Under the pieces are notes generated by a model, which made no database searches, was not told where the DNA came from, and saw only the letters and a list, made by a program, of their open reading frames with translations. The position numbers were made by a program, and so were the translations under genes. Shown piece after piece: positions 39,022 to 43,323 of a DNA stretch of 64,000 nt (position 1 is the stretch's first letter; every line of letters begins with the position of its first letter). Source of the stretch: Magnetovibrio blakemorei (lineage in GTDB: Bacteria > Pseudomonadota > Alphaproteobacteria > Rhodospirillales > Magnetovibrionaceae); NCBI RefSeq assembly GCF_001746755.1, contig NZ_MCGG01000042.1, forward strand, positions 1 to 64,000, written 5' to 3'.

Positions 39022-41433
39022 ATGACCACCATGGCCGACACCACGTCGCCGCAACGCCAACCCAAAACGTCCCGCGCCAGCGTGACCAAAACGCCGCCGA
39101 AAAAGAAGCCGGTCAACGGCAAAGCGGCGGCAAAGCCCAAAGCGCGCCCCAAAGCGCGCAACGTCATGCAGTTGAGCGATGCGGAAATTCATCGTCTGCA
39201 ACGCGCGGACCTGTTGCTGGGCATCTCACGCCACATGGCAGGCATCGAAACACTTGACGAAGTGCTGCGTGAATTGGTCGATATCGTCAGCCGCGAAACC
39301 CATGCGGAACGCTCCTCCCTATTCCTCAACGACATGGAAACCGGCGAGCTGTATACCCGCGTCGCACAAGGTTCAAACATCCGCGAAATCCGCATCCTCA
39401 ACGACAGCGGCATTGCAGGCTGGGTCTTTTCATCGGGCAAAGGCACATTGATTGATGATGCCCATGCCGATGCGCGGTTCAACAAATCCATTGATGAACA
39501 AACCGGGTTTCGCACCCGCTCGATCTTGTGCGCGCCCATCAAAACCGTCAAGGGCGACATCATCGGCGTGGTCCAGGCGCTGAACAAAAAGGATGGCCGT
39601 CACCACGCCCTTTTCAACAAGGACGATTTGGAATTTTTGCAAGACATTGCCACCCAAGCGGCCGTCGCATTGCAAAGCACGGAATTCGTCGAACGCATGC
39701 AAAAGAAGCGCAGCCAGGAAATGGAGTTCCTGGATGTGGTGTCCGATGTAACGTCCGAAATCAACTTGAACGCCTTGCTGGCCAAGGTCATGGGCGAAGC
39801 GACGCGGATGTTGAACGCGGAACGCTCCACATTGTTTCTCAATGACGAAAAAACCAACGAACTGTGGTCCATGGTGGGCGCCGGACTGAACGCGCTGGAA
39901 ATTCGTTTGCCCAATCATTTGGGCATTGCCGGCACCGTGTTCACATCGGCCAAGACCATCAACATCCCCTACGCTTACGCCGATCTGCGCTTTAACCCGG
40001 CGTTCGACAAAAAGACCGGGTTTTTCACCCGCTCCATCTTGTGCACGCCGGTGGTCAACAAAGAAGGCAAGTGCATCGGCGTCACCCAGGTGCTGAACAA
40101 AAAGGGCGGGCCGTTTTCCGATGAAGACGAGCAACGCCTCAAAGCGTTCACCGCGCAAATTTCCATCGGCCTGGAAAACGCCAAGTTGTTCTCAGACGTT
40201 CAGAACATGAAAAACTACAACGAAAGCATGCTGGAAAGTATGTCCAACGCTGTGGTCACCACCGACGAAGACGGCAAGATCGTCACCTGCAACAGGGCCG
40301 GTTATCGGATCATGAAGCTGGAAGGCGAAAAGGATGTGATCGGCAAGACCGCAGATGAGTTTTTTGCCGGAGAAAACGACTGGGTTTTGCAAACCATCAA
40401 GAAGGTGGGCGAGACAGAGGTTCCCGACATTTTGATGGATGCCGAGTTGACCTTCGGCGAAGAGAAGACCTCTGCCAACGTCACAACGCTACCGTTGATT
40501 TCATCCGAAGGCAAAAAGCTGGGCTCGATGATCATGATCGAAGACATCTCGTCTGAAAAACGTATGAAGTCAACCATGAGCCGCTATATGGACCCAGGCT
40601 TGGCCGATCAGTTGATGGCGGGTGGCGATGAGTTTTTGGGCGGTCGCAGCGCCGATGCCACGGTGCTGTTTTCCGATATCCGTTCGTTCACCACACTCAC
40701 CGAAGCCCTGGGGCCGCAAGGCACCGTCGCGCTGCTCAACGAATACTTCACCATCATGGTCGACTGCATCACCGAAGAAGGCGGCATGCTCGACAAATTC
40801 ATCGGGGATGCCATCATGGCAGCGTTCGGCATTCCGGTTGGTCACGGCGATGATGAAGACCGCGCCATGCGCGCCAGCATTAAAATGCTCACCAGCCTGG
40901 CCGACTGGAACAAGGTCCGTGCGGCGCGGGGCGAGATGACCATCGATCACGGTCTAGGGCTGAACACCGGCAACATCGTATCAGGCAACATCGGTTCGCC
41001 CAAACGCATGGATTACACCATGATCGGCGACGGCGTGAACTTGGCCGCGCGTTTGGAAAGTGCCTGCAAGCAATACCATGCGCACCTGCTCATTTCTGAA
41101 TTCACCTACAAAAAGCTCAAAGGCACGTACCGCATCCGCGACATTGACGACGTCATCGTCAAGGGCAAGACCGAACCGGTGGGCGTTTATGAAGTGCTCG
41201 ACTATCACACCGATGAAACCTTCCCCAACTTGATGGACGGCGTGAACTATTTTTCCGAAGGGCGCAAACATTACCGTGCCGGCAATTGGGACAAGGCCAT
41301 CATATCGTTCAATGACGTGTTGAAAGCCAACCCCCGAGATGAACTGTCCAACACCTATATCGAACGCTGCACGCACTTGAAGACAGAAAATCCCAAGGAC
41401 TGGAACGGCGTATGGGTGATGAAGTCTAAGTAA
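39022..41433 (+). CDS. GAF-GAF-PAS class III adenylate/guanylate cyclase
   Basis: An 803-residue soluble protein. A Lys/Pro/Ala-rich N-terminus (1-45) precedes two GAF domains (about 70-220 and 240-395) with matching HAERSSLFLNDMETGELYTR and NAERSTLFLNDEKTNELW, then a PAS domain (about 405-515) and the cyclase domain (about 535-715). Catalytic features are present: VLFSDIRSFTT and MLDKFIGDAIMAAFG (metal aspartates, base-recognition lysine), MDYTMIGDGVNLAARLES (aspartate favouring adenine, then Asn and Arg). A TPR-like C-terminus follows (AGNWDKAIISFNDVLKANPR). Probable product cAMP. ATG 39031 has better ribosome-site spacing and may be the true start. Confidence 0.9.
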   Translation: MTTMADTTSPQRQPKTSRASVTKTPPKKKPVNGKAAAKPKARPKARNVMQLSDAEIHRLQRADLLLGISRHMAGIETLDEVLRELVDIVSRETHAERSSLFLNDMETGELYTRVAQGSNIREIRILNDSGIAGWVFSSGKGTLIDDAHADARFNKSIDEQTGFRTRSILCAPIKTVKGDIIGVVQALNKKDGRHHALFNKDDLEFLQDIATQAAVALQSTEFVERMQKKRSQEMEFLDVVSDVTSEINLNALLAKVMGEATRMLNAERSTLFLNDEKTNELWSMVGAGLNALEIRLPNHLGIAGTVFTSAKTINIPYAYADLRFNPAFDKKTGFFTRSILCTPVVNKEGKCIGVTQVLNKKGGPFSDEDEQRLKAFTAQISIGLENAKLFSDVQNMKNYNESMLESMSNAVVTTDEDGKIVTCNRAGYRIMKLEGEKDVIGKTADEFFAGENDWVLQTIKKVGETEVPDILMDAELTFGEEKTSANVTTLPLISSEGKKLGSMIMIEDISSEKRMKSTMSRYMDPGLADQLMAGGDEFLGGRSADATVLFSDIRSFTTLTEALGPQGTVALLNEYFTIMVDCITEEGGMLDKFIGDAIMAAFGIPVGHGDDEDRAMRASIKMLTSLADWNKVRAARGEMTIDHGLGLNTGNIVSGNIGSPKRMDYTMIGDGVNLAARLESACKQYHAHLLISEFTYKKLKGTYRIRDIDDVIVKGKTEPVGVYEVLDYHTDETFPNLMDGVNYFSEGRKHYRAGNWDKAIISFNDVLKANPRDELSNTYIERCTHLKTENPKDWNGVWVMKSK

Positions 41434-41464
41434 TCAAAACAGGGACAGGGTGAAGGACAAGCAC

Positions 41465-41833
41465 ATGCAAATCGTACTCGTTGATGATGACCCCGATGTG
41501 ATCGACCTCATGTCCCTGGCTCTTGAACAAGCGGGACACACGGTCATCACGTCTCCCGCCGGCGCCCCCATTGTTTCGACCTTAAAAGCCGATCCGCCTG
41601 ACGTCTTGATCACCGATTTGATGATGGCGGAATTGACGGGCCTGGAACTGTGCGAACTTGTGAACACCACTGCCCGCTTGTCGAAGATGAAAATCATCGT
41701 CATCTCGGCGCGCACCGACGACCTCTGGAAAGACAAAGCCAAAGACTGCGGCGCGGCGGGCTTCATCGAAAAGCCCATCGACGTCATGACCTTTGCGGCG
41801 ACCGTCGAAGGTATCGTTTCGGCGAGTACCTAA
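41465..41833 (+). CDS. Single-domain response regulator
   Basis: A 122-residue receiver domain without output part. MQIVLVDDDPDVIDLM carries the acidic pocket, VLITDLMMAELTG the phospho-acceptor aspartate and FIEKPID the conserved lysine. The ATG at 41465 follows AAGGAC. It is 31 bases after the cyclase gene in the same direction, so it may relay or receive a signal for that cyclase. No histidine kinase is adjacent. Confidence 0.92.
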   Translation: MQIVLVDDDPDVIDLMSLALEQAGHTVITSPAGAPIVSTLKADPPDVLITDLMMAELTGLELCELVNTTARLSKMKIIVISARTDDLWKDKAKDCGAAGFIEKPIDVMTFAATVEGIVSAST

Positions 41834-41844
41834 TTCAACCCCAC

Positions 41845-41873
41845 CCTACTTGCTCGTCGCCGTGAACACGCCA
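41845..41873 (-). pseudogene. Remnant of a CHASE2-cyclase 3' end
   Basis: Read on the minus strand, 41846-41872 encodes GVFTATSK and a TAG stop, exactly the last eight residues and stop of the CHASE2 cyclase at 43296-45581. The 29-base stretch matches 43295-43323 at 25 positions, in the same orientation. The serine codon is AGC here and TCG there, so the sequences parted while still coding. Nothing upstream of these codons resembles the cyclase. The nuclease gene lies between the two copies. Confidence 0.65.
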
Positions 41874-42005
41874 CGCAAGTCTCACGCTGAGCCACTCTTT
41901 TGCTACCCGCTCATCATTCAGGACGGGATAGAGGGTCTTTGCTGACGCCCGTATTGAGCCGGATCTTTACTTTTCTGAAAGTGCTCCGACTAACTCAATT
42001 TTACC

Positions 42006-42035
42006 TTGCGTGCAACTTAACGTTGCCATTATAAG
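42006..42035 (+). promoter_or_regulatory. Candidate promoter and operator of the nuclease gene
   Basis: TTGCGT (42006-42011) and TATAAG (42030-42035) are 18 bases apart. The spacer contains an inverted repeat, GCAAC-TTAAC-GTTGC (42012-42026), placed where a repressor would block RNA polymerase. The nuclease start is 36 bases downstream. Confidence 0.5.
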
Positions 42036-42070
42036 ACATACAACAAGCGCAGTGACTTAGGGGAATAAAT

Positions 42071-43285
42071 ATGCCGCTAATTGAGTTGTGGAAAAACAAC
42101 CGAGAGCAAATTGAGCAGTACGCAATTGACCAAATTGTTGCCTTTGCAGGGGGAAAAGAACCTCTCAAGGATGGTAACTCTTGTGCTGCAGAGCTACGAG
42201 AGTACTTGTCCAAGATTCCAACCCAAACGTTGGGCATACATGTAGAAAAATGTCTTACGGACTCGTTCAAAGATAGTGGGCTCGTCCTACAGGATATTGT
42301 CAACGAGTTGGGGCGACGTCTTGATTATAAAGTGGAAAATGGTCTTTATCAGGGACGGAAAGGGGCTATAGGGTTTGATGGTCTTTGGAAATTGTCCAAC
42401 GGCCATTCCCTTGTTGTGGAGGTCAAAACGACAGATGCATACCGCATCAATCTTGATACCTTGGCTAATTACAGGATGGGCTTGCTCAATCGGGATCAAA
42501 TTAGCACAAACTCATCTATTCTCATTGTGGTTGGTCGACAAGACACAGGCGACATTGAAGCTCAGGTGCGAGGTTCACGGCACGCATGGGATATCCGCTT
42601 AATAAGTGCGGATGCTTTACTCAGACTGGTTGATCTGAAAGAGAAGACCGATGAGGACGAAACCCTCTCAAAAATTCAAAGCCTATTAGTACCGTTTGAG
42701 TACACAAGACTGGATAACATCATTGATGTGGTCTTTGCGACTGCCAAGGATGTTGAGGCTGCGGTGGATAATGAACTGCAAGACGTTGAAGACGTGACCT
42801 CAACAAACTGCAGTACTGCGAAAGTCAGCTATGTTCATCAACACACCCCTCAAGCCATAATGACAGATATTAGAAATAAAATTGTTAAAAGCATTTCTGA
42901 GCGTGAAGGCGTAAATTTTCTTGCCCACAAACGCTCTTTGTTCTGGTCGCCTGACCATAAAACTCGGGCAATCATTTCCCTTTCCAAGCTTTATGATGGT
43001 GGAAACGGATATTACTGGTATGGGTTTCACCCCCAATGGAAAGCCTTTTTAGAATCTGGAGATGTCGGATTTCATGTATTGGGATGTGTAGGTAAGAACT
43101 ATGCCCTGGCCTTGCCCAGAGAGCTTATCATTGGTGTGCTTGATAGGCTCAATACTTCTGAAAAGGATGGAGCACTTCGCCACTGGCACATCCATATCGA
43201 GCATGATGATAATGGAGAACCGTCAATTGTCGTTCATAAGACGGGAGAGAGATTGCCAGTATCCGAGTTTAAATTACCGTTATAA
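42071..43285 (+). CDS. PD-(D/E)XK nuclease-like protein
   Basis: A 404-residue protein, AT-richer than its neighbours. The region 95-125 reads as a restriction-type nuclease core: AIGFDGLWKLSN with D103, then HSLVVEVKTTDAY with E117 and K119. An upstream helix (LQDIVNELGRRLDYKVENGL) carries the usual N-terminal acidic helix of the fold. The C-terminal part (about 270-404) is a second domain I do not recognise (YYWYGFHPQWKAFLESGDVG, VLGCVGKNYALALPRELI). The start ATG follows AGGGGAA. No methyltransferase or partner is adjacent. A solitary defence or restriction nuclease is likely; the target is unknown. Confidence 0.7.
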   Translation: MPLIELWKNNREQIEQYAIDQIVAFAGGKEPLKDGNSCAAELREYLSKIPTQTLGIHVEKCLTDSFKDSGLVLQDIVNELGRRLDYKVENGLYQGRKGAIGFDGLWKLSNGHSLVVEVKTTDAYRINLDTLANYRMGLLNRDQISTNSSILIVVGRQDTGDIEAQVRGSRHAWDIRLISADALLRLVDLKEKTDEDETLSKIQSLLVPFEYTRLDNIIDVVFATAKDVEAAVDNELQDVEDVTSTNCSTAKVSYVHQHTPQAIMTDIRNKIVKSISEREGVNFLAHKRSLFWSPDHKTRAIISLSKLYDGGNGYYWYGFHPQWKAFLESGDVGFHVLGCVGKNYALALPRELIIGVLDRLNTSEKDGALRHWHIHIEHDDNGEPSIVVHKTGERLPVSEFKLPL

Positions 43286-43294
43286 CAAGCAAAT

Positions 43295-43323
43295 CCTACT
43301 TCGACGTCGCGGTGAACACGCCA
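43295..43323. repeat. Right copy of the 29-base repeat flanking the nuclease gene
   Basis: This stretch includes the stop and last codons of the CHASE2 cyclase and matches 41845-41873 at 25 of 29 positions in direct orientation. The nuclease stop lies ten bases to its left. Confidence 0.75.

Follow-up and report, generated by a model that had tools for sequence, protein, structure and literature searches.

A single nuclease gene bracketed by two copies of the 3′ end of a CHASE2 cyclase gene in Magnetovibrio blakemorei

Results and discussion

A stand-alone PD-(D/E)XK-like nuclease gene of Magnetovibrio blakemorei lies between two direct copies of the 3′ end of a CHASE2-adenylate/guanylate cyclase gene, and two genomes of the same genus (G003 and G004) carry the same junction without the nuclease. 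The copy on the far side of the nuclease lies where the cyclase gene ended ancestrally. The insertion is most likely an ordinary class of event, of which it is a clear example, and probably reflects one-sided recombination rather than a new mobile element. A new mechanism is not required. The locus preserves a readable natural scar of a single foreign gene entering a chromosome without a mobile element and leaving its neighbor unbroken.

The window, i.e. the whole stretch of 64,000 nucleotides that was analysed (genome G000), shows the gene order GAF cyclase, response regulator, left copy, nuclease, right copy, and CHASE2 cyclase (Table 1). The CHASE2 cyclase is 83% identical to its G004 homologue.

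Table 1. Features of the nuclease locus, in positions of the window
Feature	Position	Strand	Evidence or remark
GAF-domain cyclase gene, convergently paired with the CHASE2 cyclase gene throughout the order	39022..41433	+	
Response-regulator receiver gene, left neighbor	41450..41833	+	PF00072, E 7e-21; synteny in L113 (G003) and L114 (G004)
Native spacer from response regulator to old cyclase end: TTCAACCCCAC, then CCTACTT	41834..41844	.	resembles the G003 and G004 junctions
Left repeat copy, the CHASE2 cyclase gene's original 3′ end, now displaced (GVFTATSK and stop)	41845..41873	-	25/29 with 43295-43323
AT-richer leader of the nuclease gene, putative promoter/operator	41874..42070	+	GC 0.46
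Stand-alone PD-(D/E)XK-like nuclease gene, 404 aa, with a separate C-terminal domain	42071..43285	+	D103, E117, K119
Right repeat copy, the present CHASE2 cyclase gene's functional 3′ end	43295..43323	-	sequence match
CHASE2-adenylate/guanylate cyclase gene, intact, 761 aa	43296..45581	-	PF05226, E 1e-48; PF00211, E 2e-22

The two copies of the cyclase gene end

The left copy (CCTACTTGCTCGTCGCCGTGAACACGCCA) and the right copy (CCTACTTCGACGTCGCGGTGAACACGCCA) run in the same orientation and agree at 25 of their 29 bases. A repeat search returned the pair as the top direct-repeat family of the window (47 nt at 74%, spacing 1450), with weak similarity beyond the 29 bases (35/47 overall). When the fixed 29-mer from position 43296 was scanned along both strands of the 64 kb, the left copy matched at 24/29 and the next best sites at 20 and 18. 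The binomial expectation for 25/29 matches on both strands of the window is ∼6e-6, and the left 27-mer occurs only once in the genome at ≤3 mismatches. A chance repeat is ruled out by these match scores, the uniqueness in the genome, the binomial expectation, and the survey of relatives. An assembly misjoin is unlikely, because the longest exact identity between the copies is 12 bases and the left flank fits the native junction.

Both copies encode GVFTATSK followed by a stop. Their four differences fall in a threonine codon (ACG/ACC) and in the serine codon (AGC/TCG), which is unlike at all three bases. Just upstream of the peptide, the residues change from GWD in the right copy to DLR in the left copy, where the frame is preceded by a stop and contains nothing cyclase-like. 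No terminator-like site was found at the left copy when a hairpin or terminator role was looked for. An earlier reading made from the letters alone (the sequence-only reading) had described the bracketing 29-base repeat, the right copy as the end of the cyclase gene, the left copy as still encoding its last eight residues and stop, and the fully different serine codons; the alignment and the window scan bear out all of these points.

Empty sites in the same genus

Both G003 (L113) and G004 (L114) represent empty sites: the convergent cyclase end comes directly after the response-regulator gene, and the nuclease is absent. In G004, the response-regulator stop is followed by TCCAACC and then by the convergent cyclase stop (CTACTTCG); G003 has a longer spacer that ends in CCACCC ahead of CTACTTCG. 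The corresponding stretch of the window, between the response-regulator stop and the left copy, reads TTCAACCCCACC. The left flank (CCACCCTACTT) is similar to the native junctions of G003 (CCACCCCTACTT) and G004 (CCAACCCTACTT), whereas the right flank (AAATCCTACTT) is unlike either of them, the right copy being preceded by CAAGCAAATC. Because only the left flank fits these junctions, the left copy is the displaced original gene end. The insertion thus sits inside the last codons of the old cyclase gene, and the present cyclase gene is complete, using the right copy next to the cargo. The sequence-only reading had proposed a cargo that inserted at a gene end and brought its own gene end, and it had pointed to close relatives as the place to look for an empty site. 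The two empty sites and the ancestral position of the left copy support this proposal; the interpretation given in that reading is, as a whole, borne out in part.

Divergence of the two copies

Random four-substitution changes to the present Ser-type tail keep GVFTATSK and the stop in 0.25% of trials. Starting from a tail with Thr ACG, as found in G002–G005, three random changes reproduce the peptide in 0.3% of trials, a share that rises to 1.6% when either Ser or Thr is accepted. Retention of peptide and stop under random change thus has a p of about 0.002 to 0.016, a value to be read in light of the fact that the repeat was noticed because the copies read alike and that the upstream residues are not kept. 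Since four substitutions spared all eight residues and the stop, two functional source alleles are favored over a decayed target duplication. The claim that the copies parted while coding is therefore favored statistically (0.0025; 0.003 to 0.016) but falls short of proof: the same-genus genomes G002–G005 carry Thr ACG at the position of the serine codon. The AGC serine codon of the left copy occurs in none of the aligned family cyclases.

The cargo and its nuclease

The cargo comprises ∼1.4 kb of AT-rich DNA without a recombinase gene. As the sequence-only reading had noted, it is AT-richer than its surroundings (GC 0.45 for the nuclease and 0.46 for the leader versus 0.55 for the neighbors) and lacks an integrase; the nuclease is the sole open reading frame in 41874-43294, with no integrase remnant. 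The further claim of an own promoter with an operator-like repeat fared less evenly. By eye, a small palindrome (GCAAC-TTAAC-GTTGC) ahead of TATAAG makes it plausible, but a simple sigma-70 scan did not list this putative promoter and gave no clear excess of promoter-like sites. The leader DNA has no match in 20 relatives.

The nuclease (P0001) found no meaningful match in Pfam, NCBIfam, PADLOC, PHROGs, or solved structures; its family is small and has no name in current libraries. Asp-103, Glu-117, and Lys-119 are invariant in four sequences of the family. A single-sequence structure model is of low confidence (pLDDT 35), with an order of strands and helices compatible with the α-β core fold of the superfamily. 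With PD-(D/E)XK restriction-type nucleases the protein shares the D...E-x-K motif pattern, invariant in the four relatives; unlike them, it has no curated family match, no adjacent partner gene, and a C-terminal domain of uncertain kind. Perhaps it is an orphan restriction-type enzyme.

Relatives of the nuclease were found in 3 of 317 genomes of the order: G104 (∼49% identity), G031 (42%), and G130 (56%, confined to the N-terminal region). Among 399 genomes sampled across the phylum, the sole match was to the C-terminal domain, in G387, and the nuclease was absent from the phage, plasmid, and viral-contig collections searched. The G104 relative lies alone between pcm and a DUF2461-like gene, at a junction that is empty in G036; the G031 relative also lies alone, after valS; and the G130 relative (L138 7123-7968), which lacks the C-terminal domain and has an AT-rich leader, stands alone between a pair of Hsp20-like genes. 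None of these three sites shows bracketing copies of an adjacent gene end. The nuclease gene hence moves singly, and because its relatives sit singly without gene-end repeats, the repeat is particular to the present event and not to the nuclease family. In the G387 protein, the C-terminal domain (residues ∼264-395 of the nuclease) stands behind pentapeptide-like repeats (L139 6226-6921), indicating that it is a separate module. In G031, the nuclease relative and a lipoprotein-like gene are followed downstream by four tandem copies of a 21–23-nt unit (TTAAAGCGAGAGACTCGCGGG; L136 10987-11077).

Origin of the insertion

The best explanation for the locus is homology-facilitated illegitimate recombination (HFIR), which would combine a homologous crossover within the cyclase gene with illegitimate joining at its tail and needs no integrase; we give it about an even chance of being correct. 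In the ancestor, the response-regulator gene would have stood directly before the convergent CHASE2 cyclase end, as in G003 and G004. An incoming DNA fragment may have carried the nuclease gene adjoining the 3′ portion of a related cyclase gene. One end of this fragment would have recombined by homology within the cyclase gene, and the other would have undergone illegitimate joining in the final codons of the resident cyclase gene. The resident gene end would have been stranded on the far side as a scar (the left copy), and the incoming end would have completed the cyclase gene (the right copy). The cyclase would thereby have remained intact, with the nuclease occupying a tolerant gap between two convergent genes.

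This reading is supported by the empty sites, the fit of the left flank, the peptide-keeping differences, and the size, composition, and lack of a recombinase of the cargo. A ComEC-type competence protein encoded by the genome also speaks for it, although most bacteria have one. The G003 and G004 junctions provide the empty site that HFIR presupposes, and compared with them the cargo interrupts one side of the homologous gene. Against HFIR, no donor was found among the genomes searched, no mosaic is visible along the cyclase gene (relatives are only about 75–80% identical), the AGC codon of the left copy is unmatched among the aligned cyclases, and little recipient DNA was lost here. HFIR is rare and usually accompanied by deletion. 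The last 300 bases of the cyclase gene are closest to G004, like most of the gene.

HFIR joins one end by homology and the other illegitimately, and its insertions average ∼1 kb (PMC3240628); it has been proposed in Vibrio where new modules displace older 3′ material (PMC5361080). Like the HFIR products of Acinetobacter, Streptococcus pneumoniae, and Pseudomonas stutzeri, and those proposed in Vibrio T6SS clusters, the locus shows a single foreign gene on a homologous anchor gene, with old 3′ material left behind and no recombinase gene. It departs from them in that the event is old, the donor, the crossover point, and the microhomology of 3–10 bases expected at the illegitimate join are not visible, and recipient DNA is largely retained. 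In the bacterial genomes covered by PMC2884548, direct repeats flank some 10–18% of the small variable segments, so a repeat-flanked small insert is not unusual.

The main rival to HFIR is an insertion into the cyclase end with a long target duplication (∼30–47 bases), after which the left copy decayed and the cyclase-side copy stayed coding. We consider this possible, if rather unlikely. A direct repeat of the target does flank the insert and its similarity reaches weakly to 47 bases at 74%; the weak similarity past the 29 bases is equally compatible with HFIR and with such a longer duplication. Against it, the left copy keeps its peptide through four changes (random change does so in 0.25 to 1.6% of trials), the right side shows no clear repeat of the native spacer, and the sites of the other nuclease family members show no duplication. 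Long, variable target duplications are described for inserting restriction-modification genes in a passage of PMC3031569 that cites Nobusato et al. 2000. The insertions of this type studied by the Kobayashi group in Helicobacter pylori resemble the present one in their nuclease-type cargo and a target direct repeat of tens of bases, whereas the present cargo has no methyltransferase, its copies are diverged, apparently as alleles, rather than identical, and other members of its family lack repeats.

A lost integrase, a self-homing nuclease, and a lost paralogue are less likely. Elements that target gene ends usually place the substituted end next to the gene and displace the old end to the opposite side, and integrative elements at the 3′ ends of protein genes share this layout with our locus. 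That the locus is the remnant of such an element, which attached at the cyclase 3′ end, carried a replacement gene end, and has since lost its integrase, is nevertheless improbable given a one-gene cargo with no integrase remnant, copies with at most 12 exact bases in common, and no relative with a repeat-bearing element at the same cyclase end. PD-(D/E)XK homing enzymes exist, and a free-standing homing-like nuclease could have cut the empty junction, its gene being copied in as the break was repaired and the adjacent cyclase end converted. The single-gene cargo, the solitary relatives at other gene junctions, and the G104 junction that is empty in G036 speak for homing; the sites share no common target, the nuclease is of very low abundance, and phage or plasmid carriers are lacking, which makes it distinctly improbable. 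It would be far-fetched to regard the nuclease as a member of a small family of single genes that insert themselves into gene junctions without an integrase, through cleavage by their own product, with the replaced gene end as the mark of this mode of entry. The sequence-only reading had also considered two tandem CHASE2 cyclase paralogues, one of them mostly replaced by the nuclease. The left copy does read as a cyclase end in the right orientation, but this origin is very improbable, as the window's own genome and those of its genus each contain one full-length close CHASE2 cyclase and the empty sites likewise hold a single one.

Variability of the convergent cyclase junction

The convergent pair of GAF cyclase and CHASE2 cyclase genes is kept across the order, with gaps ranging from 13 bases to 4.5 kb and contents that differ among genomes (e.g. 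a response regulator in some). Other gaps hold radical-SAM-like, Hpt-like, CoA-ligase-like, and TolC-like proteins, the names of gap genes being assigned by eye from sequence. The junction is tolerant and variable. The sequence-only reading had suggested looking for the same flanked arrangement with other cargo; none of ∼90 relatives' junctions carries other cargo bracketed by a copy of the cyclase end, and none of the nuclease relatives elsewhere is flanked by a gene-end repeat, so the arrangement does not recur. In L112, a 21/29 match that has no stop is no more than chance would give across ∼90 loci.

The gaps of G002 (L112 4940-8998) and G005 (L115 5109-9527) contain a histidine kinase, MsrA, and an agmatine-deiminase-like gene in differing orders and with other additions. 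At the same junction of G010, a short GIY-YIG-like gene block occurs twice (L118 2122-2431 and 3240-3680; 95–97% identical), bounded by REP-like palindromes (ATTCCCGCCTGCGCGGGAATGACG). Copies of this palindrome are scattered through 12 of the 21 genomes searched but absent from the genome of the window. In G005, the convergent cyclase gene ends form an imperfect 34-nt inverted repeat (L115 4990-5023 and 9526-9559; 74%), because both cyclase proteins have similar C-terminal tails of the form W(D/N)GV...K.
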